Shown here: one piece after another, positions 49,068-62,623 of the stretch
Position numbering within the stretch: the first letter of the stretch is position 1
Layout: the number at the start of each line of letters is the position of its first letter
Source of the DNA: Planctomycetota bacterium
Lineage (GTDB): Bacteria > Planctomycetota > MHYJ01 > JACPTZ01
Direction: 5' to 3'
Length of the DNA stretch: 64,000 nucleotides
Assembly (NCBI GenBank): GCA_016192525.1
Contig: JACPTZ010000017.1
Coordinates: 1-64,000, forward strand
Notes under the pieces: model-generated
Told to the model about the DNA's origin: nothing
The model's database searches: none
The model's input: only the letters and a program-made list of their open reading frames with translations
Position numbers and translations under genes: made by a program

Positions 49068-49436
49068 TCACTTCCCCGGGTTGGACCCGGCCTTCGCCCG
49101 CGCCGAGGCGATTTTCTTCAGCATCTCCGGCGGCGGGATGAATCCGATCTGGGTTTCGAGCACCTTTCCGCCGGACGAGAGCAGGCGCACGTCCGGGATG
49201 TACGTCACCCCCAGCGAACCGGCGGTCTCGGGATGGCGGTCGGTGTTGACGCGAACGCACACGAAATCCTTCGCCAGTTCGGCGTCCACCTGCGGGTTGG
49301 AGAGCGTCACGGCCTCCAGCTGGCGGCAGGAGGGTCACCAGTCGGCGGTGAGATCGACGAAGAGCATCTTGCCGTCCTTCGTCGCGCGCTCCAGCCCCTG
49401 TTCATAGTCCTCGATCCACTCCACGGTGCCCGGCAT
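49068..49436 (-). CDS. Thioredoxin-fold selenoprotein (UGA codon 34, U-P-S-C)
   Basis: Reading TGA at 49337-49335 as selenocysteine gives a 122-residue thioredoxin-fold protein: MPGTVEWIEDYEQGLERATK, MLFVDLTADW-U-PSC-RQLEAV, then FVCVRVNTDRHPETA and GVTYIPDVRLLSSGG (cis-Pro region IPD). The UGA falls exactly on the first redox cysteine of the CxxC motif after a Trp, as in thioredoxins. AGGA precedes the ATG at 49436. Everything downstream of the UGA keeps strong coding character to the TGA stop at 49068. A stem-loop follows the UGA. A short protein starting after the UGA would lack half the fold. It lies 19 nt from the paralogous gene upstream. Confidence 0.85.
49299..49337 (-). promoter_or_regulatory. 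Candidate bacterial SECIS, gene at 49068
   Basis: The UGA (49337-49335) is followed by 17 nt and then GGAGG-C-CG-UGA-CG-C-UCUCC (49317-49299): a five-pair lower stem including one G-U, one C-C mismatch, two upper pairs and a three-base loop. Distance matches the other two UGA genes. Confidence 0.6.
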
Positions 49437-49455: not shown

Positions 49456-49806
49456 TTACCCCGCTTTGGCGCGGGCGTCCTCGATCATCTTCAGCATCGC
49501 CGGAGGCGGCACGAAGCCGATCTTCTGCATGAGGACCTGTCCCTGGGAATTGAGGATCCTCACATCGGGGATCTGCAGCGCCCCAAGGGCCGATGCTGTA
49601 TCCGGGTCCTTCATCATGTCGATGTGGACCGCCACGAAGTCTTTCTGGATCTCCCCCACGACCTGGGGGTTGGAGAACGTGACGCTCTCCAGTTTCTTGC
49701 AGGCCCCTCAGCCCTCCGAGTCGATGTCCAGCAGGACCTTCTTGCCGCCCTGTTTCGCGGCCTCGAGCGCTTCCGGGTACGAGGTCATCCAGTTCAGCCC
49801 GGCCAT
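49456..49806 (-). CDS. Thioredoxin-fold selenoprotein (UGA codon 33, U-G-A-C)
   Basis: Reading TGA at 49710-49708 as selenocysteine gives 116 residues: MAGLNWMTSYPEALEAAKQG, KVLLDIDSEG-U-GAC-KKLE, SVTFSNPQVVGEIQKDFVAV, then ALQIPDVRILNSQGQVLMQK. It is a clear paralog of the next gene (shared SNPQV, IPDVR and IGF(V/I)PPP segments). The UGA is at the first position of UxxC. AAAGGA precedes the ATG at 49806. The stop is TAA. The tandem pair plus DUF255 makes a run of three thioredoxin-fold genes, probably one operon handling thiols or protein disulfides in the cytosol (no signal peptide). Confidence 0.85.
49672..49710 (-). promoter_or_regulatory. Candidate bacterial SECIS, gene at 49456
   Basis: The UGA (49710-49708) is followed by 17 nt and then GGAGAGCG-UCA-CGUUCUCC (49690-49672), an eight-pair uninterrupted stem (one G-U) with a three-base loop. 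It is the best folded of the three. Confidence 0.65.
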
Positions 49807-52362: not shown

Positions 52363-52575
52363 CTAGCCCGGATTATTCGCGAGTTCTCCGGCGTTCCCTG
52401 GCGAGAGAGCGTTCCTGCGGATTGCCGAGGCCCCGAGTAGGCGCGGCCGTACACGCGCCGTAACGAGGGGCTGGCCCTGCATTCGGGGCAGCGTGGCCTG
52501 GGCCGCCCCTCGTTACGCGGCCTGCGGGCCGCTACTCGGGGCTACGGCGTCTGGTTCACGAATAATCCGGGCTAG
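52363..52575. mobile_element. Nested inverted-repeat element (MITE/BIME-like)
   Basis: Outer arms CTAGCCCGGATTATTCG (52363-52379) and its exact complement (52559-52575), 17 nt. Inner imperfect arms GGCCCCGAGTAG...CGTAACGAGGGGC (about 52429-52477 and 52499-52545) face each other. The right end supplies the TAG stop of the adjacent HEAT gene (52574-52572). No ORF. Confidence 0.85.
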
Positions 52576-53768
52576 CGCGGGCCCGCCTCGACCGCCCGCA
52601 GATCGCGGTCCAGCCGCTCAAGTTCGCGTCGACGTGCCGGGTCCCGGACCCACTGCGTGTTCATCCCCCACGGCCAGAGCAGATTCGAGATGGCCGCACG
52701 TCGCGTCTCCGGCGCATGGGACGCGTCGTGGGCGACCGCCAGGAGGGTGTCCCGAACCTCGGTGTCGCGCTGCGTGGCATAGCGGGAAACGGCGTCGAGG
52801 ATCTTTTTCTGCAGCGTCGGGTCCGGGTCGCGCGTCGCCAGATCGAGCATGACCCGGAAATCGGAAGAGGTCGCGATCTGCCCCAGCCGATCGACGGCCG
52901 CCGCTCTCACGGAAGGGTCCGCGTCCGAACGAATGGACTCCAGCAGGAGGCCCCGTGCCTCCGGGAAGTTCAACGGGGAGTTCGCAAGGGCGCCCCGACG
53001 CAGGTCGGGATCGGTCTCCGATCGCACGGCCCGGCACCACCGATCGTACAGTTCGATCGACCCCGTGTAATCCAGGTGCTCCAGCGCCTTCCTCCGGTTC
53101 GCCGGGTCCGGGTCGTCGGCCAGTTTCATCAGAAGCCGGTTGTACTCGTCCCGCACGGATTCCGGGACTTGTTTAAGGAGACACCCCGATGTGTGGCCGG
53201 TCCGTTCCAGATCCTCGATCTCGTCTCCGATCCACTCGGCGAAGAGCTCGTGGCGCTCCTCACCCAGGGCGTCGTAGAGACCGAGCGCCAGGGCGGCGAC
53301 GTCCGTTTCCCGAACCTCGCCGAACAGATGGCTTGCCTCCCGCAAGATGTAGAGCCCGCAAAAGTCATCTCTCGTCTTCAACCACCTCGGGGTGACCCTG
53401 GCGCGGACGAGCTCGACGATCCCCCGGACCTTTTCGCGGAGCGTCTCTCCCGGCACTTCGGACAGGCCCCCGGGAAGCCAGTGTCCCCGGCGATCAGTGT
53501 GCGGCTTCGACCCGGTCGCCCCGGAAGCCGGAGACGGCGCCGACCCCGCGCCCGACGGGGGCAGGTCGTCGGTGACGGAGCAGTTCGGGCAGAGCCTCGT
53601 GGCGGGGGCGCCACTCGGGGGAACCTCCGCGGCCAATGGGGAATGGTCCGGGGACGGCGTCGCCGCCCGGGAATCAAGTGAAGTCCGCGCCCGGAGCATC
53701 CCCGCGCCGCCGCAGACGGCCGCCATCGTGGCGGCGACCGCATAGACCTTGAGCGCCCTACTTCCCAA
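52572..53768 (-). CDS. Membrane-anchored HEAT-repeat protein, paralog A
   Basis: A 398-residue protein with TTG start at 53768 (GGAGG six bases before), one N-terminal helix (LKVYAVAATMAAVCGGAGML) and a short zinc-ribbon-like RLCPNCSV. The motif GGLSEVPGETLREKVRGIVE is followed by HEAT repeats (DPDPANRRKALEHLDYTGS; SDADPSVRAAAVDRLGQIA; QRDTEVRDTLLAVAHDAS). It overlaps the next paralog by 11 nt. Its stop lies in the inverted-repeat element. Only one CxxC of a zinc ribbon is present, and its fourth residue is Ser where the paralogs have Gly. Confidence 0.85.
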   Translation of the reverse strand: MGSRALKVYAVAATMAAVCGGAGMLRARTSLDSRAATPSPDHSPLAAEVPPSGAPATRLCPNCSVTDDLPPSGAGSAPSPASGATGSKPHTDRRGHWLPGGLSEVPGETLREKVRGIVELVRARVTPRWLKTRDDFCGLYILREASHLFGEVRETDVAALALGLYDALGEERHELFAEWIGDEIEDLERTGHTSGCLLKQVPESVRDEYNRLLMKLADDPDPANRRKALEHLDYTGSIELYDRWCRAVRSETDPDLRRGALANSPLNFPEARGLLLESIRSDADPSVRAAAVDRLGQIATSSDFRVMLDLATRDPDPTLQKKILDAVSRYATQRDTEVRDTLLAVAHDASHAPETRRAAISNLLWPWGMNTQWVRDPARRRELERLDRDLRAVEAGPR

Positions 53769-54987
53769 GTCCCGCCTCCCCGGCCATGGACGCGCGAAGG
53801 GTCGCCAGCATTTCCTGGAGCGTCTGCCGCTCCCCGGCGTCGGTGACGAATTGCCTGCAGCTCGCGTAAAGCAGGATCTCGATACTCCGCCCCCGCAGTT
53901 TCAACGGGCGGGCCGGATCGCGTGCCACCTCGAACAGCGCATCACGTGCCTCCCGGTCTCGATGGCTCGCCTCTCCGCTGAGTCCCGTGATGATGGCCTC
54001 CTGGAGGCCCGGGTCCGGCCGTTGGCGGAGCATCTCGATCATCGACGTGAATTCCTGCGTGTCGGCGAAGCGGAACACCTCAGGGATGGCGGCGGCCCTC
54101 ACGCCGGCGTCCGGATCGGATCGCGCCGTCTCCATCAGGCTCCGCCTCAACTCGGGGATTCGGAATCGGGGGTGGTCGGAGGGGACTTCGTCCAGGGCGC
54201 CGCCCGGGTCATCGGGGAACCGCAGAGGGAGATTCTCCGCCGCCGTTGCGCGCACCGAGGGATCCGGGTCCGTGGCCAGGAGACGGAGCCAGGAGTCGAC
54301 GACCCCCGGGAAGGTCGAGTAGTGGAGCAGGCGAAGCGCTTTCCGGCGATCCGACGGATCCGGGCTCGCGCGCATGTCGACAACGATGCGGGCGAACTCC
54401 TCCTCTTCCGCGTCTGTGGTGGAGAAGGGCGACATCTCCTCGATCCCGTGAGCGATGAGCCCTCCCACGTGCTCGTCCTTCTCCCCGCGGAAGAGGTCGA
54501 GGAGAAGGCGGACAAACCCGTCGGGATCCTGATCGACCGCCTCTTCGCAGAAATTCTCAACCTCCCTCTCCCGATCCCACTGCCCCGGGTACTCCGGCGT
54601 TCTTCCGCCCATCACGGATCGCAGCCCGTCGAAGAAGTTCCGGGTCTTTTCCCTCAGGTCGTGTCCGGGGAGGTCGTCCAGGCTCCGCGGCGGCCAGTTT
54701 TCGGGGGGCTTCGTGGCATCAGGGTCTGCGGGAGTGTCGGACGTCGTGGGAGGAGGGGGGGCGGCGTCCGTCGCACCAGCCGCATCCGCCGCGGACAGGT
54801 CACGGCCGCAACGGGGGCACGCCTCGCGGAGCGGCGCAGACGGGGCGGCGCTCTTCGTCCGGGCCGTCTCGCCCGGAGGCGGGCGTCTGTGCTCTCCGCC
54901 GATTCCCGCCACGCTCCACCAGGCTCCGGCGAGACCGCAGGTGGCGATCGTCACGAGGAGGGAGTAGACGGCGAGGAGATGCCTCAC
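53758..54987 (-). CDS. Membrane-anchored HEAT-repeat protein, paralog B
   Basis: A 409-residue paralog: GTG start overlapping the upstream stop (GTGA), helix MRHLLAVYSLLVTIATCGLA, zinc-ribbon-like EACPRCGRDL, then NWPPRSLDDLPGHDLREKTR and HEAT repeats (TDPDPSVRATAAENLPLRF; SDPDAGVRAAAIPEVFRFA; HRDREARDALFEVARDPAR). The C-terminus is a short helix pair (VTDAGERQTLQEMLATLRAS). Middle member of a four-gene overlapping run. Confidence 0.87.
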   Translation of the reverse strand: MRHLLAVYSLLVTIATCGLAGAWWSVAGIGGEHRRPPPGETARTKSAAPSAPLREACPRCGRDLSAADAAGATDAAPPPPTTSDTPADPDATKPPENWPPRSLDDLPGHDLREKTRNFFDGLRSVMGGRTPEYPGQWDREREVENFCEEAVDQDPDGFVRLLLDLFRGEKDEHVGGLIAHGIEEMSPFSTTDAEEEEFARIVVDMRASPDPSDRRKALRLLHYSTFPGVVDSWLRLLATDPDPSVRATAAENLPLRFPDDPGGALDEVPSDHPRFRIPELRRSLMETARSDPDAGVRAAAIPEVFRFADTQEFTSMIEMLRQRPDPGLQEAIITGLSGEASHRDREARDALFEVARDPARPLKLRGRSIEILLYASCRQFVTDAGERQTLQEMLATLRASMAGEAGLGK

Positions 54988-56285
54988 TTGCCCTCCGTTC
55001 CGCTCGTCCCCGCCTGCTTGATCCGCGTCATCATCGCCTCCAGTTCGCTCCGCTCCGCCCGGTCCTCCACGAACGAACCGGAGTGGCCCCAGAGGAGATC
55101 CTGCAGCGCCTGCATCCGCACCGAGGCGGCGCGGGAGGGATCGCGCGCGACGTCCAGGAGCGCCGTCCGCACCTCCGTGTCGCGCGGAGTGGCGCCGTAG
55201 GAGAAGGCGCGGATCGCCGCCTCCTGCACCGCCACGCTCGGATCGGTGCGGAGGAGTCGGACGAGGACGCCCATCTCGGTCGGCGAGGCGGTCTCGCCGA
55301 GACTCCGGATCGCCGCGAGGCGGACCGTGAGGTCGCTGTCGTACTGCGCGGCCTGGACCAGCATGTCCCCTCCGTCCGGGAAACGGCGAAGCGGGTGTTC
55401 GGCGGCGACGGCGCGGACGGTCGGGTCGTAGTCGGATCGCAGCGCCTGCGCCCAGCGGTCCCGGTCCTCGTCGTCGTTCGAGGCGCTGAGGTGGCGGAAT
55501 CCCTTGCGACGCTGGAGCGGGTCGGTGCTCGACGTCAGGGTGTCGAGGAGGCGATCGAACTCCGCGCGCTCCTCGGTCGGCAGCTTCATCACCTGCAGGT
55601 GCCAGCCGAGCGCCTCGGCCACGATCTCCTCCGACTCGCCGGTGAAGAGATCGAGGAGCACGCGCGGGAGGGCGGGATCGTTCTTGGCCTCCTTGAGCAC
55701 CCCGCTCAGCATTTCCCGGAGCCGGTAACGCCCCTTGAGATCGCCCGGCGGCAGACCCTCGACCTCCGCGCGGAGACGCTCGATGAAGGTCGCGACCTTG
55801 TCTCGAAGCGTCCCGCCGGGCACATCGGCGAGCGACTGCGGCGGCCAGGGCCAGTCCTGAAGCGGAGGGGGAGAGGGGTCTTTCCTCGTGCCCTTGCCCG
55901 CAGGCGCCTTATCGGCCGGGACCGGCGGAACGCCTGTCACGGAGGAGTCGAGGCTCTTGCCGCAATGCGGGCAGCGGGCCGGCGCGTCCGTCCGGTTCGT
56001 CGGTTCAGACGCGAGGCTGTCGGTTGTTGTTCCTGTTTTTCCCCTCTCCCCCGCAGCGGGAAAGGGCAGGGTGAGGGGGGACACGTCCCTCCCCGCGGGC
56101 GACGGTGTTTCCTCTCTCACCCCAGGCCCCCATCTCCCTCCGGGGGAAAGGGGAGCATGCCGTTCTGTGACGAGTTGGTCGAACTCGACCCGGGTGAGCC
56201 ACCAGCCCGCCGCGCAGGCGATGGCGGCCGCGGTGACAAGCACGCCGTAGGCGACGAGCAGACGGTGGGAGTTCACGCCGGTCAC
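54984..56285 (-). CDS. Membrane-anchored HEAT-repeat protein, paralog C, with repeat insertion
   Basis: A 433-residue paralog (GTG start, GTGA overlap). Helix HRLLVAYGVLVTAAAIACAA, then an in-frame repeat-derived segment (PLSPGGRWGPGVREETPSPA; SPLTLPFPAAGERG), zinc-ribbon-like ARCPHCGKSLD, WPPQSLADVPGGTLRDKVAT and HEAT repeats (SDYDPTVRAVAAEHPLRRF; PRDTEVRTALLDVARDPSRA). The repeat segment lies in the linker between helix and zinc motif, where extra length should be tolerated. Confidence 0.87.
   Translation of the reverse strand: MTGVNSHRLLVAYGVLVTAAAIACAAGWWLTRVEFDQLVTERHAPLSPGGRWGPGVREETPSPAGRDVSPLTLPFPAAGERGKTGTTTDSLASEPTNRTDAPARCPHCGKSLDSSVTGVPPVPADKAPAGKGTRKDPSPPPLQDWPWPPQSLADVPGGTLRDKVATFIERLRAEVEGLPPGDLKGRYRLREMLSGVLKEAKNDPALPRVLLDLFTGESEEIVAEALGWHLQVMKLPTEERAEFDRLLDTLTSSTDPLQRRKGFRHLSASNDDEDRDRWAQALRSDYDPTVRAVAAEHPLRRFPDGGDMLVQAAQYDSDLTVRLAAIRSLGETASPTEMGVLVRLLRTDPSVAVQEAAIRAFSYGATPRDTEVRTALLDVARDPSRAASVRMQALQDLLWGHSGSFVEDRAERSELEAMMTRIKQAGTSGTEGK
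56035..56160. repeat. CTCTCCC/GGGAGAGG-type repeat within paralog C
   Basis: CCCCTCTCCCCCGCAGCGGG, GGCAGGGTGAGGGGGGACAC and CTCTCACCCCAGGCCCCCAT form a head-to-head repeat. A close relative lies at 57345-57455 at the same place of paralog D. Confidence 0.75.
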
Positions 56286-57622
56286 TTCCTCTGGAGCGCC
56301 TGTTCCTTCATGAGTTCGAGGGTCATTTGCCCCAGTTCCCTCTCCAGGATCGGGTCCTGGATCAGGCCCCCCGAACCCGCGAATCGGAGCACATTGAGGG
56401 ACTCGATCCGCAGTCCGATGGGGCGCTGAGGATCACGCCCGATCTCAAGGAGCGCGTCCCGCACCTCGGTGTCCCGCGTCGTTGCGCCGAGCTGAAACGT
56501 CCAGAGGATCGACTTCTGCACCGCAAACTCCGGCTCGCGTCGCAGCAGGGCCAGCATGGCCCGGAATTCCTCCTGAGTGGCGCCATGGGCAAGGCTCTGA
56601 ACGCCGTTCGCCCGGACCCCCGGGTCGGGATCGTACTGCGCGGCCTGGAGCAGAAGCGATCTCGCCTCCGGAAACCCGATCGGGCGCTCCTCGGCCGCCG
56701 CGGCGCGGACGCCGGCGTCCGGGTCCGCCGCCAGCGCGATACGCCACCGTTCGAGGGCCTCCGGGGTGCGCAGGTAGGTGGCGCCCTGCAGTGATTTTCG
56801 GCGCTCCAGCGGGTCGGTGCTTTGCGACAGCTCCGCCAGCAAGCGTTCGTGCTCCGCCTTCTCCTCCGCCGTCGCGTCCTTCAGGACCGGCCAGCAGAGT
56901 TTCGTCCCGATCAACTCGGCGAGGAGCTCGTTCCGCTCACTTTGAAAGAGGTCGAGCAGCACCCGCGGCAGGCCGGAGGCGTCCTCCTGCCCCGCCTCCT
57001 CGAGGATCTCCTCCACCGGGTCCCGGATCTTCGCCACCCGGAGCACGTCGTCCCGGCTCACGTCGCCGGCCTGGTCGCGCGCAGAATCGATCAGCGCGGT
57101 GATCTTTTCCCGAAGCGTGGCGCCGGGGAGATCGGCGAGCGAACGCGGCGGCCAGGATCCGTCCGGAGAAGGGGGGCGAGAGGCGCTCTTTGCGGACGCT
57201 CCCGCCGCCGGTTCTGGTTTGGGACCTCCGGGAGGCGTTCCCGTCACAACGGGGTCGAAGCCCCGGCCGCAGTGAGGGCAGGGCGCACCCGTGGGCGTCG
57301 CCTCGGGGGTGTCCGCTGGCGTCGTTGTTTCCGCTTCTCGCCCCTCCCCCGCACCGGGAGAGGGCAAGGTGAGTGGGGATTCGTCCCTCCCCGCGTGCGG
57401 CGGTGTTCCCCTCCTCATCCCCGGCCTCTCTCCCTCTCCCCGGGAGGGCGGAGGGCCGACCTGGTCCAACTCGGCCCGTGTCGACCACCACCCGATTCCG
57501 AGGGCGATCGACGCCACCGTCGCGAACATCGCCCACGCGACGACCAGCGTGAAGGCGAATGAACCGACCGCGGGCAGGCGCGGCGGGGACGGAGGTGGAG
57601 CCGCGGCGTTTGCGTCAGGCAT
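56282..57622 (-). CDS. Membrane-anchored HEAT-repeat protein, paralog D, with repeat insertion
   Basis: A 446-residue paralog, first of the four-gene run. ATG 57622 (MPDANAAAP) is preceded by GGAGGG. Helix FTLVVAWAMFATVASIALGI, repeat-derived linker (PPSRGEGERPGMRRGTPPHA; SPLTLPSPGAGEGRE), zinc-ribbon-like APCPHCGRGFDP, WPPRSLADLPGATLREKITA and HEAT repeats (ADPDAGVRAAAAEERPIGF; TRDTEVRDALLEIGRDPQRP). The C-terminus is a coiled helix (LERELGQMTLELMKEQALQ). Confidence 0.87.
   Translation of the reverse strand: MPDANAAAPPPSPPRLPAVGSFAFTLVVAWAMFATVASIALGIGWWSTRAELDQVGPPPSRGEGERPGMRRGTPPHAGRDESPLTLPSPGAGEGREAETTTPADTPEATPTGAPCPHCGRGFDPVVTGTPPGGPKPEPAAGASAKSASRPPSPDGSWPPRSLADLPGATLREKITALIDSARDQAGDVSRDDVLRVAKIRDPVEEILEEAGQEDASGLPRVLLDLFQSERNELLAELIGTKLCWPVLKDATAEEKAEHERLLAELSQSTDPLERRKSLQGATYLRTPEALERWRIALAADPDAGVRAAAAEERPIGFPEARSLLLQAAQYDPDPGVRANGVQSLAHGATQEEFRAMLALLRREPEFAVQKSILWTFQLGATTRDTEVRDALLEIGRDPQRPIGLRIESLNVLRFAGSGGLIQDPILERELGQMTLELMKEQALQRK
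57345..57455. repeat. CTCTCCC/GGGAGAGG-type repeat within paralog D
   Basis: CCCCTCCCCCGCACCGGGAG, AGGGCAAGGTGAGTGGGGAT and CTCTCCCTCTCCCCGGGAGG correspond block by block to the insertion in paralog C. Confidence 0.7.
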
Positions 57623-57714
57623 GATTTCACACCCTCCGAGGTACGTGGCCGCCGTCCCTGGCGTTGTCATCCTGGAGCCTGAGAAGAAATGCGCCGACGA
57701 GCGAGGCGCCAGAT

Positions 57715-58292: not shown

Positions 58293-58457
58293 TCACAAGT
58301 CCGATGTTGAAGACCTACTGGCGATCCGTCAGCGCTGATTCAGCGAGCGGCCTGTCGTTGTTTCCCCCCTTCGTCATTCCTCCTTCCGCACTCGTCATTC
58401 TTGCCTCCCCGCCCCCGCCCGCCGTATCATGGCGCCTCCCTGCACAAGGAGACGCCC

Positions 58458-59585
58458 ATGCCGCTCCCCGCCCTTCGCCCTGTCCTCGTGGCCGCCGTGC
58501 TCCTCGCCGCCCTCGCCGCCCGTTCCGCTTTTGGGGGGAGCGAGACCCCGCCCGAGGGGCCGCCCTGGAAGCGCGACTTCCTCGAGGCCCAGAAGGAGGC
58601 CCTCAAGGAGGGGAAGCCGATTTTCATCTACCTCACGAAGACCTACTGACCCCACTGCGTCGTCGTGGAGAAGCAGTTGCTTCCCAACCCCGATCTGAAA
58701 CCGGTCTACGACAAGGTGGTCTGGCTCTACGTCTTCCGCGACTTCTCCGCGAAGGGGGACGACCTCAAGGCGGAGCGCACGTCGCTCCGGTTCGGGCTGT
58801 CGTCCTACCCGCAGCTCTTCCTCGTCGATCCCGAATCGCTCGAAACGATCGGCGAGACCGGTCGCGAAGTGGATACGTTTCTGAATGCCGTGCGGAACGC
58901 CCACGTCCGCAAGGCGAGGGACCTCAAGGCGCTGGAACGGGTCCAGCAGGCCGACTCCCGGGCCGAGGAGCTGGAGAAGAAGGACTCGGTTGAACTCGCG
59001 AAGAAGTACTTCGCCGACGAAGACATCGTCGTCCGCACCCGGGCGCTCCGCATCCTGGCCGAGAAGGAGCCGGGTCTCGTGGCGGCGAAGGCGAAGGACC
59101 TGCTCGAGATCGAGAACGACACCTTCCGCTATGAAGTGTGCAAGGCCCTCAAGAAGGCGGGCGATGTGAAGGCCGCGCGCGCACTCGATGAGGTGGCGCA
59201 GAATCCGAAGGGGAGCCGAAACCCGAATGTGCTCTCCTCGGAGGCGGCCGCCGCACTGGAGACCTGCGGAGACATGAAGTCGATCGCGGCCCTCGCGCCG
59301 AGGATCACCCGGGGGGACTACAAGAACAGCGGGACGCGGATCGCCATCGATTCCGTGATGGGGATTGTCAAGCGGTTCCCGAAGGCGAAGGGCGAGGCGA
59401 AGGATGTTCTCCGACAGGGATTTCCGGAGCCCTGCGATCCCAAGGAGAGCGACAACCTGCGGAACATGTGCGAGGCCTTCGCGAAACACCTCCACGACTG
59501 TCTCGAGGATCTCACCGGAAAGAAGGTCCCGTTTCCGGATCCGTACGACGCCAGGGGGCGCGAGCGACTGATGAAGGCGTGGTGA
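58458..59585 (+). CDS. Exported thioredoxin-fold selenoprotein with HEAT-like tail (UGA codon 64, U-P-H-C)
   Basis: Reading TGA at 58647-58649 as selenocysteine joins two parts into one 375-residue protein. N-terminal signal peptide (LPALRPVLVAAVLLAALAAR), WKRDFLEAQKEALKEGKPIF, IYLTKTY-U-PHC-VVVEKQLL, then SSYPQLFLVDPESLETIGET (cis-Pro, SYP) completes a thioredoxin fold. HEAT-like helices follow (ADEDIVVRTRALRILAEKEP; ALETCGDMKSIAALAPRIT). AAGGAGA precedes the ATG. The UGA is the first redox position of UxxC. It lies between HEAT paralogs D and E, which suggests a shared extracytoplasmic role. Confidence 0.88.
58647..58685 (+). promoter_or_regulatory. Candidate bacterial SECIS, gene at 58458
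   Basis: The UGA (58647-58649) is followed by 17 nt and then GGAGAAGC-AGUU-GCUUCCC (58667-58685), seven pairs with one bulged A and a four-base loop. Same GGAG start and spacing as the other two. Confidence 0.62.
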
Positions 59586-59598
59586 GGGGGGGGGCGCC

Positions 59599-60948
59599 TC
59601 ACCGGACCTCCCCCTCCGGCTCATCCCAGATCGCCTGCTCCAGCGCCTCGAGTTCCCGGCGCTGCTCCGCGTTCTGGACGTACCCGTCCCCGCCGTTGGT
59701 CCCCCACAAGAGCGCGCTCACGGCGCTCCCCCTCAGCGACTGCGGCTGCGACCGATCCCGGGCAATCTCGAGCAGTGTGTCCCGGACCTCCGTGTCGCGA
59801 ATGCTGGCGGACCAGGCGACGGCGTCGAGCACGGCCTGCGGCACCTCGGGGTCGCGATCCGACCGCATGATTCCGAGGAGAGTCCGCATCTCGGCTGCGG
59901 TGGGGTTGTACCCGACGGTGTAGATCGCGTTCGTCCGGACGGTGCTGCTCGGGTCGAACTCCGCGGCGCGGAGGAGGAGGGAGCGGGAGGCATCCGTCCG
60001 GCTGGTCGGAGGGAGGACGGCGGCCTCGGCGCGGACCTGCTCGTCCGGATCGGAGAGGAGCATCCGGCTCCAGAGGTCGGCGGTCTCGGGTAGATCGATC
60101 TGCTGGGCCTGGCCCAAGGCCTTGACCCGATCGGCGGCGACGGGGCTGGTTCCGAGGGAGAGGAGGAGGCCGACGAACTCGTTGCGCTCGGTATCGGTCC
60201 TGGTCAATCCCCAGAGATGGGTGCCGAGGGTGCGCGCGAGAGTGGGGTCCGACTCCGCCCGGAAGAGGTCGAAGAGCGCGGCGCGGGTGGCCGAAAGGTC
60301 CTGCTTCTGGGCCTCGGAGAGAAGTTCGCTGAGCCTCGCCTGCGCGAGGTTGAATTGGTTCGCGTAGGACTGCCGCGCGTTTGGATCCCCTTCCGGCGGC
60401 GGGGGGACCGCCTCGTGGATGCGCGTGAGGAGGGACCGCAACTTGTCGGCGACGGTGACCCCGGGAATGTCGGCGAGGCGGTTCGGGAGGTTCGCGGCTC
60501 CCGCGAGGACGGAGATCATCGTGTCGAGATTCGCGCCGTTGACGGCGGTGGTCCCCGTCGTTGCCTTCCCGCCGGCGGACACCGAGGTGCCGCAGTTCGG
60601 GCAGCGTGCCGGGGCCCCCGGATCGGACGGGCCGGCGGGCGTGACGGCGACGCCGACAGTCGAAGCGGGCGATCCCGAGGTGTCTCCCATTCCTCCCGCA
60701 GCCTCGACAGCGGAATCCGGATCTCGTCCCGCTTCGAGCGGGGCGGCCCCGTGCGAAGGTCCCCTCGCCGCGGCCGGACCCGTCCGGCCCCTCCCCCCCG
60801 GCGGCCCCGGTCGCAGGATCGGCGGGCGCACGGCCGCGGGCGCCGAGCTATCCTCAACGCGCTCCGCCGCCCGCCACCACCCGACCGCGCAGACGAATGC
60901 CGCGGCGGTGACCGTCACGCTGTAGGCCGTCAGGACCGTCTTTGACAA
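59599..60948 (-). CDS. Membrane-anchored HEAT-repeat protein, paralog E
   Basis: A 449-residue paralog. I prefer the TTG at 60948 (LSKTVLTAYSVTVTAAAFVC) because the other four begin their helix at once and GGGAGG lies ten bases upstream; ATG 61062 would add 38 residues of Gly-rich sequence. It has a linker, ARCPNCGTSVS, LPNRLADIPGVTVADKLRSL and HEAT repeats (SDPDEQVRAEAAVLPPTSR; IRDTEVRDTLLEIARDRSQ). It faces the UGA gene convergently with a 13-nt gap. Confidence 0.83.
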   Translation of the reverse strand: MSKTVLTAYSVTVTAAAFVCAVGWWRAAERVEDSSAPAAVRPPILRPGPPGGRGRTGPAAARGPSHGAAPLEAGRDPDSAVEAAGGMGDTSGSPASTVGVAVTPAGPSDPGAPARCPNCGTSVSAGGKATTGTTAVNGANLDTMISVLAGAANLPNRLADIPGVTVADKLRSLLTRIHEAVPPPPEGDPNARQSYANQFNLAQARLSELLSEAQKQDLSATRAALFDLFRAESDPTLARTLGTHLWGLTRTDTERNEFVGLLLSLGTSPVAADRVKALGQAQQIDLPETADLWSRMLLSDPDEQVRAEAAVLPPTSRTDASRSLLLRAAEFDPSSTVRTNAIYTVGYNPTAAEMRTLLGIMRSDRDPEVPQAVLDAVAWSASIRDTEVRDTLLEIARDRSQPQSLRGSAVSALLWGTNGGDGYVQNAEQRRELEALEQAIWDEPEGEVR

Positions 60949-61126
60949 GATGCCGTTTCCTCCCAGCTCTGCGGCCGCCCCGGGGATTTCACCCCCTCCG
61001 CCTTCGCCATTCACCAGCACCCCGTTGTCCGTGCCCGCACCTCGCAAACCGCGTTTGTCCATTCGTCATTCATTCGTCATTCCTCATTCCGCATTCGTCA
61101 TTGCCTCGTCCCTCACCCCTTACCCC

Positions 61127-62497
61127 TCACGTTCCCTTCCTCTTCTTCTCCGCCTCCGCCATCTTCTGCCTCGCCGTCGCGGCGAAGGCGGTCCCGGGGT
61201 ACTTCTCGATCACTCGCTTGTACTCGACGATGGCCTTTTCGTACATCTTGTTCTTGAAGTAGTTGTCTCCATTGCGGAGCCACTTCTCGCAGTCCGCCCG
61301 GGCCTGCTCCTCCTTCATCGCCTTCTGGACCTCCGGGTCCTTTTCCAGGTCCTCGATCCGTTGTTTCGCCTCGGCGGCCTTCGTGACGAGCGGACAGGTC
61401 TCGACGATCTTCCGGTACAGGCCGATCGCCTTCGGCCAGGCCTTCGCCTTCTCCGCCGCCTCGGCCTGTTTCCAGAGATCGGCGGCGGCGGCCGACTGGC
61501 GCGTCGCCTCGACGATCGCGTTCGCCTCCGGGTCCTGGTGGATCGCGTCGATCTTCCCTTCCGCCTCCTTCGCAGCGGGGGTGCCGGCGAACTTCGTTTT
61601 CACCTCGGTGAGGGCGGTTTCGGCCTCGGAGAACTTCTTGGCCGCGACGAGGGCCGCCGCCGCATCGAGCGCCACCTTCGCCTGGGACTCGATCTGGTCG
61701 ATCGCGATCGTCACCTTCTCCGCGAGATCAGGCGCCACCTTCGCCTTCTTCTCCTCGATGGCGGCCCGGGCTCTCCTGAGCGTCCCGTACGCGGCGGCGA
61801 AGTCGCCCGCCTCCTGCGCCTTGAGCCCCTGTTCCGCGTCCTGGGTCGCCGCCCGGGCGAGGGCCGCCTCCGCCGGGTCCTGCCCGATACACTTCTCCAC
61901 GCACTCCGCGATCGACGCCCTCTGCTCCGGCTCGTAGCCGAGCGCGTGAAGGCGGATGACCCCCTCGCGGTCGACGACGATCGTCATCGGCGTCCGAAAC
62001 TCCTTGTTGACAGGATACCGCTCAATCGTGGCGCGGCCCCGGTCCCGGGCGATCGGGAAGGGAAGCTGCAGCATCTGGAACCAGGCCTGGGCCATTTCCG
62101 GCCTCTGATGCGCCTCATTCCCCAGGACACTCCAGACCCCCACCACCGTGAGCCCCTTCTCCCTGAACTGGGCGTGGAGCTCCTTGGCGTGAGGAAGACT
62201 GTAGGCCTCGCAGATCCCGCCGGTCATCTCGAAGAACGACACGAGAACGACCCGCCCGCGGAGGCTTCGCGGGTCGGAGGCCGGCCCCTGGATCCAGTCC
62301 TTCTCCACGTCGAAGTCCCGGAACTCCTTCCCGAGGAATTCGGACTCTACCGGTGGGGCGGGCGTCCCGCCTGCCCCGCCGTCCCCGCCCGCCCCGGCGC
62401 CGTCCCCGCCGGGAGGCTGGGTGTCCTGGGCCGGGAGCGGAGCGGATCCCGCGAGGAGGATGAGGAGGCCGACCGCGAGCGCCATTCGGAGAGACAT
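61127..62497 (-). CDS. Exported redoxin/TlpA-like protein with helical repeat tail
   Basis: A 456-residue protein: signal peptide (MALAVGLLILLAGSAPLPAQ), a Gly/Pro linker, then a thioredoxin-like TlpA/redoxin domain (LRGRVVLVSFFEMTGGICEA; GLTVVGVWSVLGNEAHQRPE; FRTPMTIVVDREGVIRLHAL). At the CxxC position it reads TGGIC, so only one of the two cysteines remains; disulfide exchange would need another partner. The C-terminal half is helical/TPR-like (GDFAAAYGTLRRARAAIEEK; KMYEKAIVEYKRVIEKYPGT). ATG 62497 with GGAG is preferred to the ATG four codons upstream. Confidence 0.85.
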   Translation of the reverse strand: MSLRMALAVGLLILLAGSAPLPAQDTQPPGGDGAGAGGDGGAGGTPAPPVESEFLGKEFRDFDVEKDWIQGPASDPRSLRGRVVLVSFFEMTGGICEAYSLPHAKELHAQFREKGLTVVGVWSVLGNEAHQRPEMAQAWFQMLQLPFPIARDRGRATIERYPVNKEFRTPMTIVVDREGVIRLHALGYEPEQRASIAECVEKCIGQDPAEAALARAATQDAEQGLKAQEAGDFAAAYGTLRRARAAIEEKKAKVAPDLAEKVTIAIDQIESQAKVALDAAAALVAAKKFSEAETALTEVKTKFAGTPAAKEAEGKIDAIHQDPEANAIVEATRQSAAAADLWKQAEAAEKAKAWPKAIGLYRKIVETCPLVTKAAEAKQRIEDLEKDPEVQKAMKEEQARADCEKWLRNGDNYFKNKMYEKAIVEYKRVIEKYPGTAFAATARQKMAEAEKKRKGT

Positions 62498-62623
62498 GGG
62501 GGGCTCCATCCGGGACGTACGGCGAATCGCCGCATTCTACCGGGTGGAGAGGGGGGAAGCAAGGTCGTCGCGGGGTTTGAATCGCTTCAGAAACCGCCCC
62601 TTCCGGACCGGCCTGAGCGACAC

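Follow-up and report, generated by a model that had tools for sequence, protein, structure and literature searches.

Within a 64,000-nt stretch of contig JACPTZ010000017.1 (Planctomycetota bacterium, assembly GCA_016192525.1), hereafter the window, translation table 11 yields two closely spaced open reading frames, one at 58401-58649 that ends in TGA and one at 58665-59585. This raises the question as to whether the TGA at 58647-58649 is a stop codon between two genes or a selenocysteine (Sec) codon within one, as in the original prediction, which read both halves together as a thioredoxin-HEAT selenoprotein of a possibly new family.

A thioredoxin-HEAT reading frame across an in-frame TGA

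When the TGA is read through, U64 divides the 375-residue product into 63 N-terminal and 311 C-terminal residues, and the joined protein carries a hydrophobic leader, the sequence KTY-U-PHC, and a long helical tail (Table 1). Both halves have a coding-type composition, with G+C contents by codon position of 0.70/0.49/0.90 before the TGA and 0.66/0.40/0.87 after it. A profile search with the joined sequence supports the predicted union of the two halves: Pfam Thioredoxin_7 (PF13899) matches residues 37-125 unbroken across the TGA (1.5e-9; 38.3 bits, exceeding the gathering score of 27 bits), and a HEAT_2 match follows at residues 182-251 (1.2e-7). The position of signal peptide cleavage is a predicted one, and no lipobox Cys is seen within the signal peptide (approximately residues 1-27).

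Table 1. Positions in the window of the selenoprotein gene, its features, and two further genes with in-frame TGA codons
Feature	Position	Strand	Description and basis
Selenoprotein gene, complete	58458-59585	+	375 residues, then stop TGA 59583-59585; full-length orthologs
Shine-Dalgarno-like AAGGAG	58446-58451	+	6 nt upstream of ATG 58458; sequence reading
In-frame TGA, codon 64 (Sec64)	58647-58649	+	TGA at the same codon in 20/20 orthologs
Redox motif Sec64-Pro65-His66-Cys67 (UxxC)	58647-58658	+	Conservation in the ortholog alignment
Signal peptide, approximately residues 1-27	58458-58538	+	Hydrophobic leader in all orthologs; leader helix 8-21 in the model, low pLDDT at 15-27
Thioredoxin-fold domain, residues 37-147	58566-58898	+	PF13899 at residues 37-125; secondary structure of the model
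Pro118, usual cis-Pro position of thioredoxin folds	58809-58811	+	Invariant column; presumed role, from the fold family
C-terminal HEAT superhelix, residues 157-374	58926-59579	+	HEAT_2 in 19/19 aligned orthologs; helices of the model
SECIS-type hairpin	58666-58686	+	Covariation, synonymous constraint, folding of 20 sequences, published bSECIS rules (PMC13188914)
Small Thioredoxin_7 gene, UPSC	49068-49436	-	In-frame TGA at 49335; stable downstream hairpin
Small Thioredoxin_7 gene, UGAC	49456-49806	-	In-frame TGA at 49708; adjoins 49068-49436; stable downstream hairpin

A single confident model that passes through U was obtained with AlphaFold2 from nine sequences (pLDDT 89.3, pTM 0.84), its tail a regular superhelix. 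U64 opens the active-site helix, and the two-residue-spaced redox motif UPHC (residues 64-67) starts this first helix (residues 65-73 in the model), as in thioredoxin-fold active sites. In a structure search, the thioredoxin part comes nearest to DsbD-gamma, DsbH, and AGR2 among solved folds (TM 0.56-0.68 by target length), and the tail to repeats of the HEAT/ARM type; no solved structure among the matches fits the model over its whole length. A sequence search of the PDB was uninformative and gave no match to the DsbD C-terminal (gamma) domain, DsbH, or AGR2.

The frame is shared by a family of genes. A search of related genomes returned four full-length relatives (47-48% identity), each with exactly one internal TGA, and when 392 genomes of the phylum were searched with a profile, 20 gave matches, 19 of them with one internal TGA. 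A scan of 84,980 species using an alignment-based query of two conserved peptides found eight loci, all labeled Planctomycetota or Pirellulaceae, seven of which are identical in DNA to genes already found, with L056 the only new one; an earlier contig scan with a single protein as query had given no matches. The ortholog set comprises 20 Planctomycetota genomes, with 19 near-full-length genes and one fragment that are 34-55% identical to the window protein, and the flanks on both sides of the TGA are open as thioredoxin and HEAT. Class-level searches around genomes G162 and G122 added no further orthologs and no Cys forms, and the family has been found so far only in Planctomycetota.

At codon 64, all 20 orthologs have TGA, and the surrounding residues follow the pattern T-K-x-[YH]-U-P-[HS]-C; none has Cys at this codon, and no other stop codon replaces the TGA. 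Conservation of UGA at one codon with both flanks conserved in 20 genomes shows that the arrangement is not due to chance, and it bears out the proposal of a UGA-encoded selenoprotein: each ortholog reads through the TGA, and none ends or starts there. Cys homologs, the other comparison that the original prediction called for, are absent from the 20 members of the orthologous family and occur only among more distant exported thioredoxins with other tails. Thioredoxin_7 and HEAT_2 both match in 19/19 aligned members. Invariant residues cluster at the active site (P54, F56, Y58, T60, K61, U64, P65, C67, V68, E71, L75, and P76), P118 is also invariant, and H66 is conserved in >90% of orthologs. 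Median dN/dS values of 0.36-0.60 carry little weight because dS is high.

We note one shortened gene copy (L076; genome G048, contig C118, 30353-30919), in which FVYLT is joined to EKKPAVVV. A stretch corresponding to approximately residues 62-203 is missing, and with it the Sec site and the greater part of the thioredoxin domain; the copy has no internal TGA, and G048 still has SelA and tRNA-Sec. This copy represents either Sec loss through in-frame deletion or an assembly artifact.

Decoding of the UGA

The SECIS-type hairpin starts 16 nt 3' of the UGA and has a 5-bp upper stem set off by a bulged A from as many as three additional pairs, with an AGUU tetraloop at 58675-58678 (+25 nt from the UGA). 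Among 18 gap-free sequences, pair 25-36 is GC, AU, or CG and is unbroken in all, pair 21-39 switches between CG and GC, and the outer two pairs are absent in eight. None of 500 shuffles equals the real alignment in paired percentage, in the number of cells with changes on both sides, or in covariation score, and sliding the partner along lowers pairing from 90% to 36-67%. Synonymous codon choice follows the same pattern: a K, E, Q, or G residue at +8 accompanies CTT, CTC, or CTG for Leu at +11, silent choices that are explained by RNA pairing, and of the near-full-length genes, the 18 with Leu at +10 all encode it by TTG, a codon that makes up 8% of the Leu codons in their remaining sequence. 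Two orthologs (L073 and L074) retain the hairpin through a shifted or bulged stem, with an AGUUG or AGGU loop.

Published bSECIS rules specify a loop of 3-9 nt, a stem of 4-16 bp, a G within the first two loop positions, a distance of 16-37 nt from the UGA, and a minimum free energy (MFE) of at most -7.5 kcal/mol (PMC13188914). All 20 hairpins conform, with AGUU, AGUUG, or AGGU loops, a spacing of 25 nt, and hairpin MFEs of -7.9 to -11.4 kcal/mol. Taken individually, only 8 of the 20 exceed their synonymous shuffles in stability at P < 0.05, and it is therefore the comparative evidence that bears the SECIS assignment. An Rfam search of the window gave no matches.

The host encodes SelA (469 bits) and a SelB that is truncated by a contig end; its assembly (82% complete, 227 contigs) yielded neither tRNA-Sec nor SelD. 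Two host tRNA-Sec candidates were rejected, the best match being tRNA-Ser(UGA) and another a long-armed tRNA-Cys(GCA), as was a SelD-profile match (L103) that proved ThiL-like on reading its sequence. Within the 392-genome sample, SelA is present in 245 genomes, including 18 of the 19 that carry the gene and 227 of the 373 others (P = 0.0013, with relatedness ignored). A strong tRNA-Sec match is present in 14/19 carrier genomes, with a UCA anticodon in all 13 that were read, and the remaining five comprise the host and four assemblies of 70-88% completeness.

We consider it close to certain that the UGA is decoded as Sec. Counting against this reading are the missing tRNA-Sec and SelD matches in the host assembly, the outer pairs absent from eight sequences, and the small share of hairpins that individually stand out from shuffles. 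A very improbable alternative is that the UGA is recoded to Trp or Cys, through general suppression or a change in genetic code. The host does contain an odd tRNA (L003; contig C164, 1499-1593, minus strand) with a GCA anticodon, a 6-bp D stem, a 9-bp variable arm, and discriminator U, which resembles a tRNA-Sec-shaped tRNA-Cys, and a pattern search of the incomplete host assembly found no ordinary tRNA-Cys; tRNA-Sec-like cysteine tRNAs, some with a UCA anticodon, have been described in other phyla (PMC7609411). However, a GCA anticodon is unable to read UGA, the carrier genomes have SelA and canonical tRNA-Sec(UCA), and a SECIS-type hairpin lies 3' of the UGA. Moreover, TGA terminates the selenoprotein gene itself and many of its orthologs, which excludes a change in genetic code.

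That the TGA is an ordinary stop, so that a short exported peptide would precede a second gene beginning at GTG 58665, is the annotation to be expected of a standard gene caller but is barely credible. Although the two open reading frames called with table 11 are just what this reading predicts, the second would lack the first strand and the active site, whereas a single thioredoxin domain and a single confident fold cross the TGA, the frame is kept in 20 orthologs without exchange of TGA for another stop, and a conserved RNA hairpin lies downstream. A sequencing error or decaying pseudogene, for which the fragmentation of the host genome into 227 contigs might be invoked, can be dismissed, as 19 more genomes of several families have the same TGA with the protein conserved on both sides.

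Relationship to known families and proposed function

The only selenoprotein family touched in NCBIfam 20.0 is NF041199 (Trx7/PDZ), with a sub-threshold match to residues 37-78 (E 0.0024). Its members resemble the window protein in having a Thioredoxin_7-type domain with Sec, but they combine CxxU with a PDZ tail (PMC13188914, PMC9312934), and the window protein, with UxxC, a HEAT tail, and a score of 16.9 bits against a cut-off of 300, lies outside the family. The thiol:disulfide interchange selenoprotein of the PF13098 type (PMC13188914) likewise has UxxC in a related thioredoxin-like domain, and PF13098 weakly matches residues 49-126 of the window protein (24.1 bits, below the Pfam cut-off of 27). 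However, its catalog entry mentions no HEAT tail (PMC13188914). DsbD-gamma, DsbH, and AGR2, the nearest folds to the thioredoxin part, also lack a HEAT tail. DsbD and DsbH act outside the cytoplasm, and the solved DsbD-gamma, DsbH, and AGR2 proteins use Cys.

Neither the 2026 catalog (PMC13188914) nor the 2022 catalog (PMC9312934) contains a HEAT selenoprotein, and Planctomycetes has zero occurrences in both; a 2016 genome paper refers the selenoprotein candidates of two planctomycetes to a supplementary table (PMC4807772). The suggestion that the family may be new thus holds up as far as the 2026 catalog and NCBIfam 20.0 extend, where a matching family is absent; an existing annotation under another name, in nr or in preprints, is conceivable. 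The best reading is that these exported thioredoxin-fold selenoproteins with UxxC form a new family that apparently has no Cys members, its architecture apparently new and the kind of protein otherwise well known.

Established thioredoxin chemistry leads us to infer a selenol/thiol oxidoreductase that works outside the cytoplasm and uses Sec as its nucleophile. In this scheme, SelB, sitting on the hairpin, would bring Sec-tRNA-Sec to the UGA, and the signal peptide would export the chain, which would fold as a thioredoxin domain, with its Sec64-Pro-His-Cys67 active site, followed by the HEAT superhelix. Sec64 would attack disulfides or oxidized thiols (possibly peroxides) of extracytoplasmic partners, Cys67 would resolve the intermediate, and the HEAT tail would hold the partner or client. 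We regard it as quite probable that the gene encodes a Sec-containing, exported selenol/thiol oxidoreductase, with export and the direction of catalysis predicted and the redox role suggested by the fold. The chances are about even that the HEAT tail is a client- or partner-binding module.

A more specific possibility is a selenium-using chaperedoxin like CnoX/YbbN, in which the tail would hold oxidized or unfolded envelope proteins and the Sec site would repair or protect their thiols. The two share a layout, a thioredoxin domain followed by a helical-repeat superhelix, and YbbN structures rank among the top matches to the whole model, although these matches are weak (3qdn, E 1.2e-3; 3qou, E 3.3e-3); CnoX is described as a thioredoxin plus TPR protein with holdase and redox functions (PMC6282202). 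However, CnoX/YbbN has a TPR tail and an SxxC or CxxC site (PMC6282202), whereas the window protein has UxxC and a tail that matches HEAT_2 with no TPR match, and there is no whole-length superposition (rmsd of ~22, TM of ~0.2). We therefore consider a CnoX-like protein rather unlikely. A tentative version particular to this family, which we also regard as less likely than not, is an extracytoplasmic 'seleno-chaperedoxin' of Planctomycetota that exists in the Sec form only, its HEAT superhelix perhaps presenting oxidized envelope proteins to UPHC, where Cys would be unable to substitute.

Other UGA-containing thioredoxins and the gene neighborhood

The original prediction called this the third UGA protein, and the two small Thioredoxin_7 genes in Table 1, in both of which U occupies the first motif position, are most likely the first two. 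Among looser matches in the phylum are exported thioredoxins that have different tails and either U or C at the same site, with Sec forms UKAC, UPPC, UGPC, UKHC, and UPYC, and Cys forms CPHC, CNPC, and CGWC; L017, for example, is a distant exported thioredoxin with CPHC and a different tail. Sec thus recurs at this site in planctomycete exported thioredoxins, of which the thioredoxin-HEAT family is one stable branch. Further thioredoxin-like proteins have Sec at the first motif position and varied C-terminal tails (L018, L019, L020, L021, L024, L027, L029, L035, L037, L039, and L040), several with a signal-peptide-like leader, and thioredoxin-like selenoproteins absent from the catalogs seem to be plentiful in the phylum.

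The family contributes a selenoprotein architecture that is not yet catalogued, in a phylum with no mentions in two prokaryotic selenoprotein reviews even though 245 of the 392 sampled genomes have SelA. Searches for Cys/Sec pairs rest on Cys homologs, and the deep-Sep authors state that their method may fail to recognize selenoproteins lacking them (PMC13188914, PMC12013277). Because of this dependence, Cys-free families are probably detected too rarely and entered in annotations as a stub and a HEAT protein clipped at its N terminus, and if the family is indeed Sec-only, finders that require Cys homologs would overlook it and others like it. It also offers a test case for why certain redox sites appear to accept only Sec.

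No operon partner is conserved between families of orthologs, and gene context therefore says little about function. Shared neighbors (an ABC-2 type permease, a KDPG-aldolase-type protein, and a DUF6159 protein) occur only among orthologs of one family (f64), which suggests a stand-alone gene. The description of the locus as a HEAT-paralog region is apt for the window, where 59599-61062 (minus strand) encodes a HEAT_2 protein, but the orthologs do not share this setting. Close to the selenoprotein gene, 61127-62509 (minus strand) encodes a TPR-tailed protein that has an AhpC-TSA/redoxin domain and looks exported, a possible, if unsupported, redox partner. The minus-strand genes at 52572-57670 resemble the 59599-61062 protein by eye; the products of these tandem genes combine a HEAT-like C terminus with a membrane anchor and a CPxCG-type motif, and the genes, between which the selenoprotein gene lies, are probably paralogs of each other.
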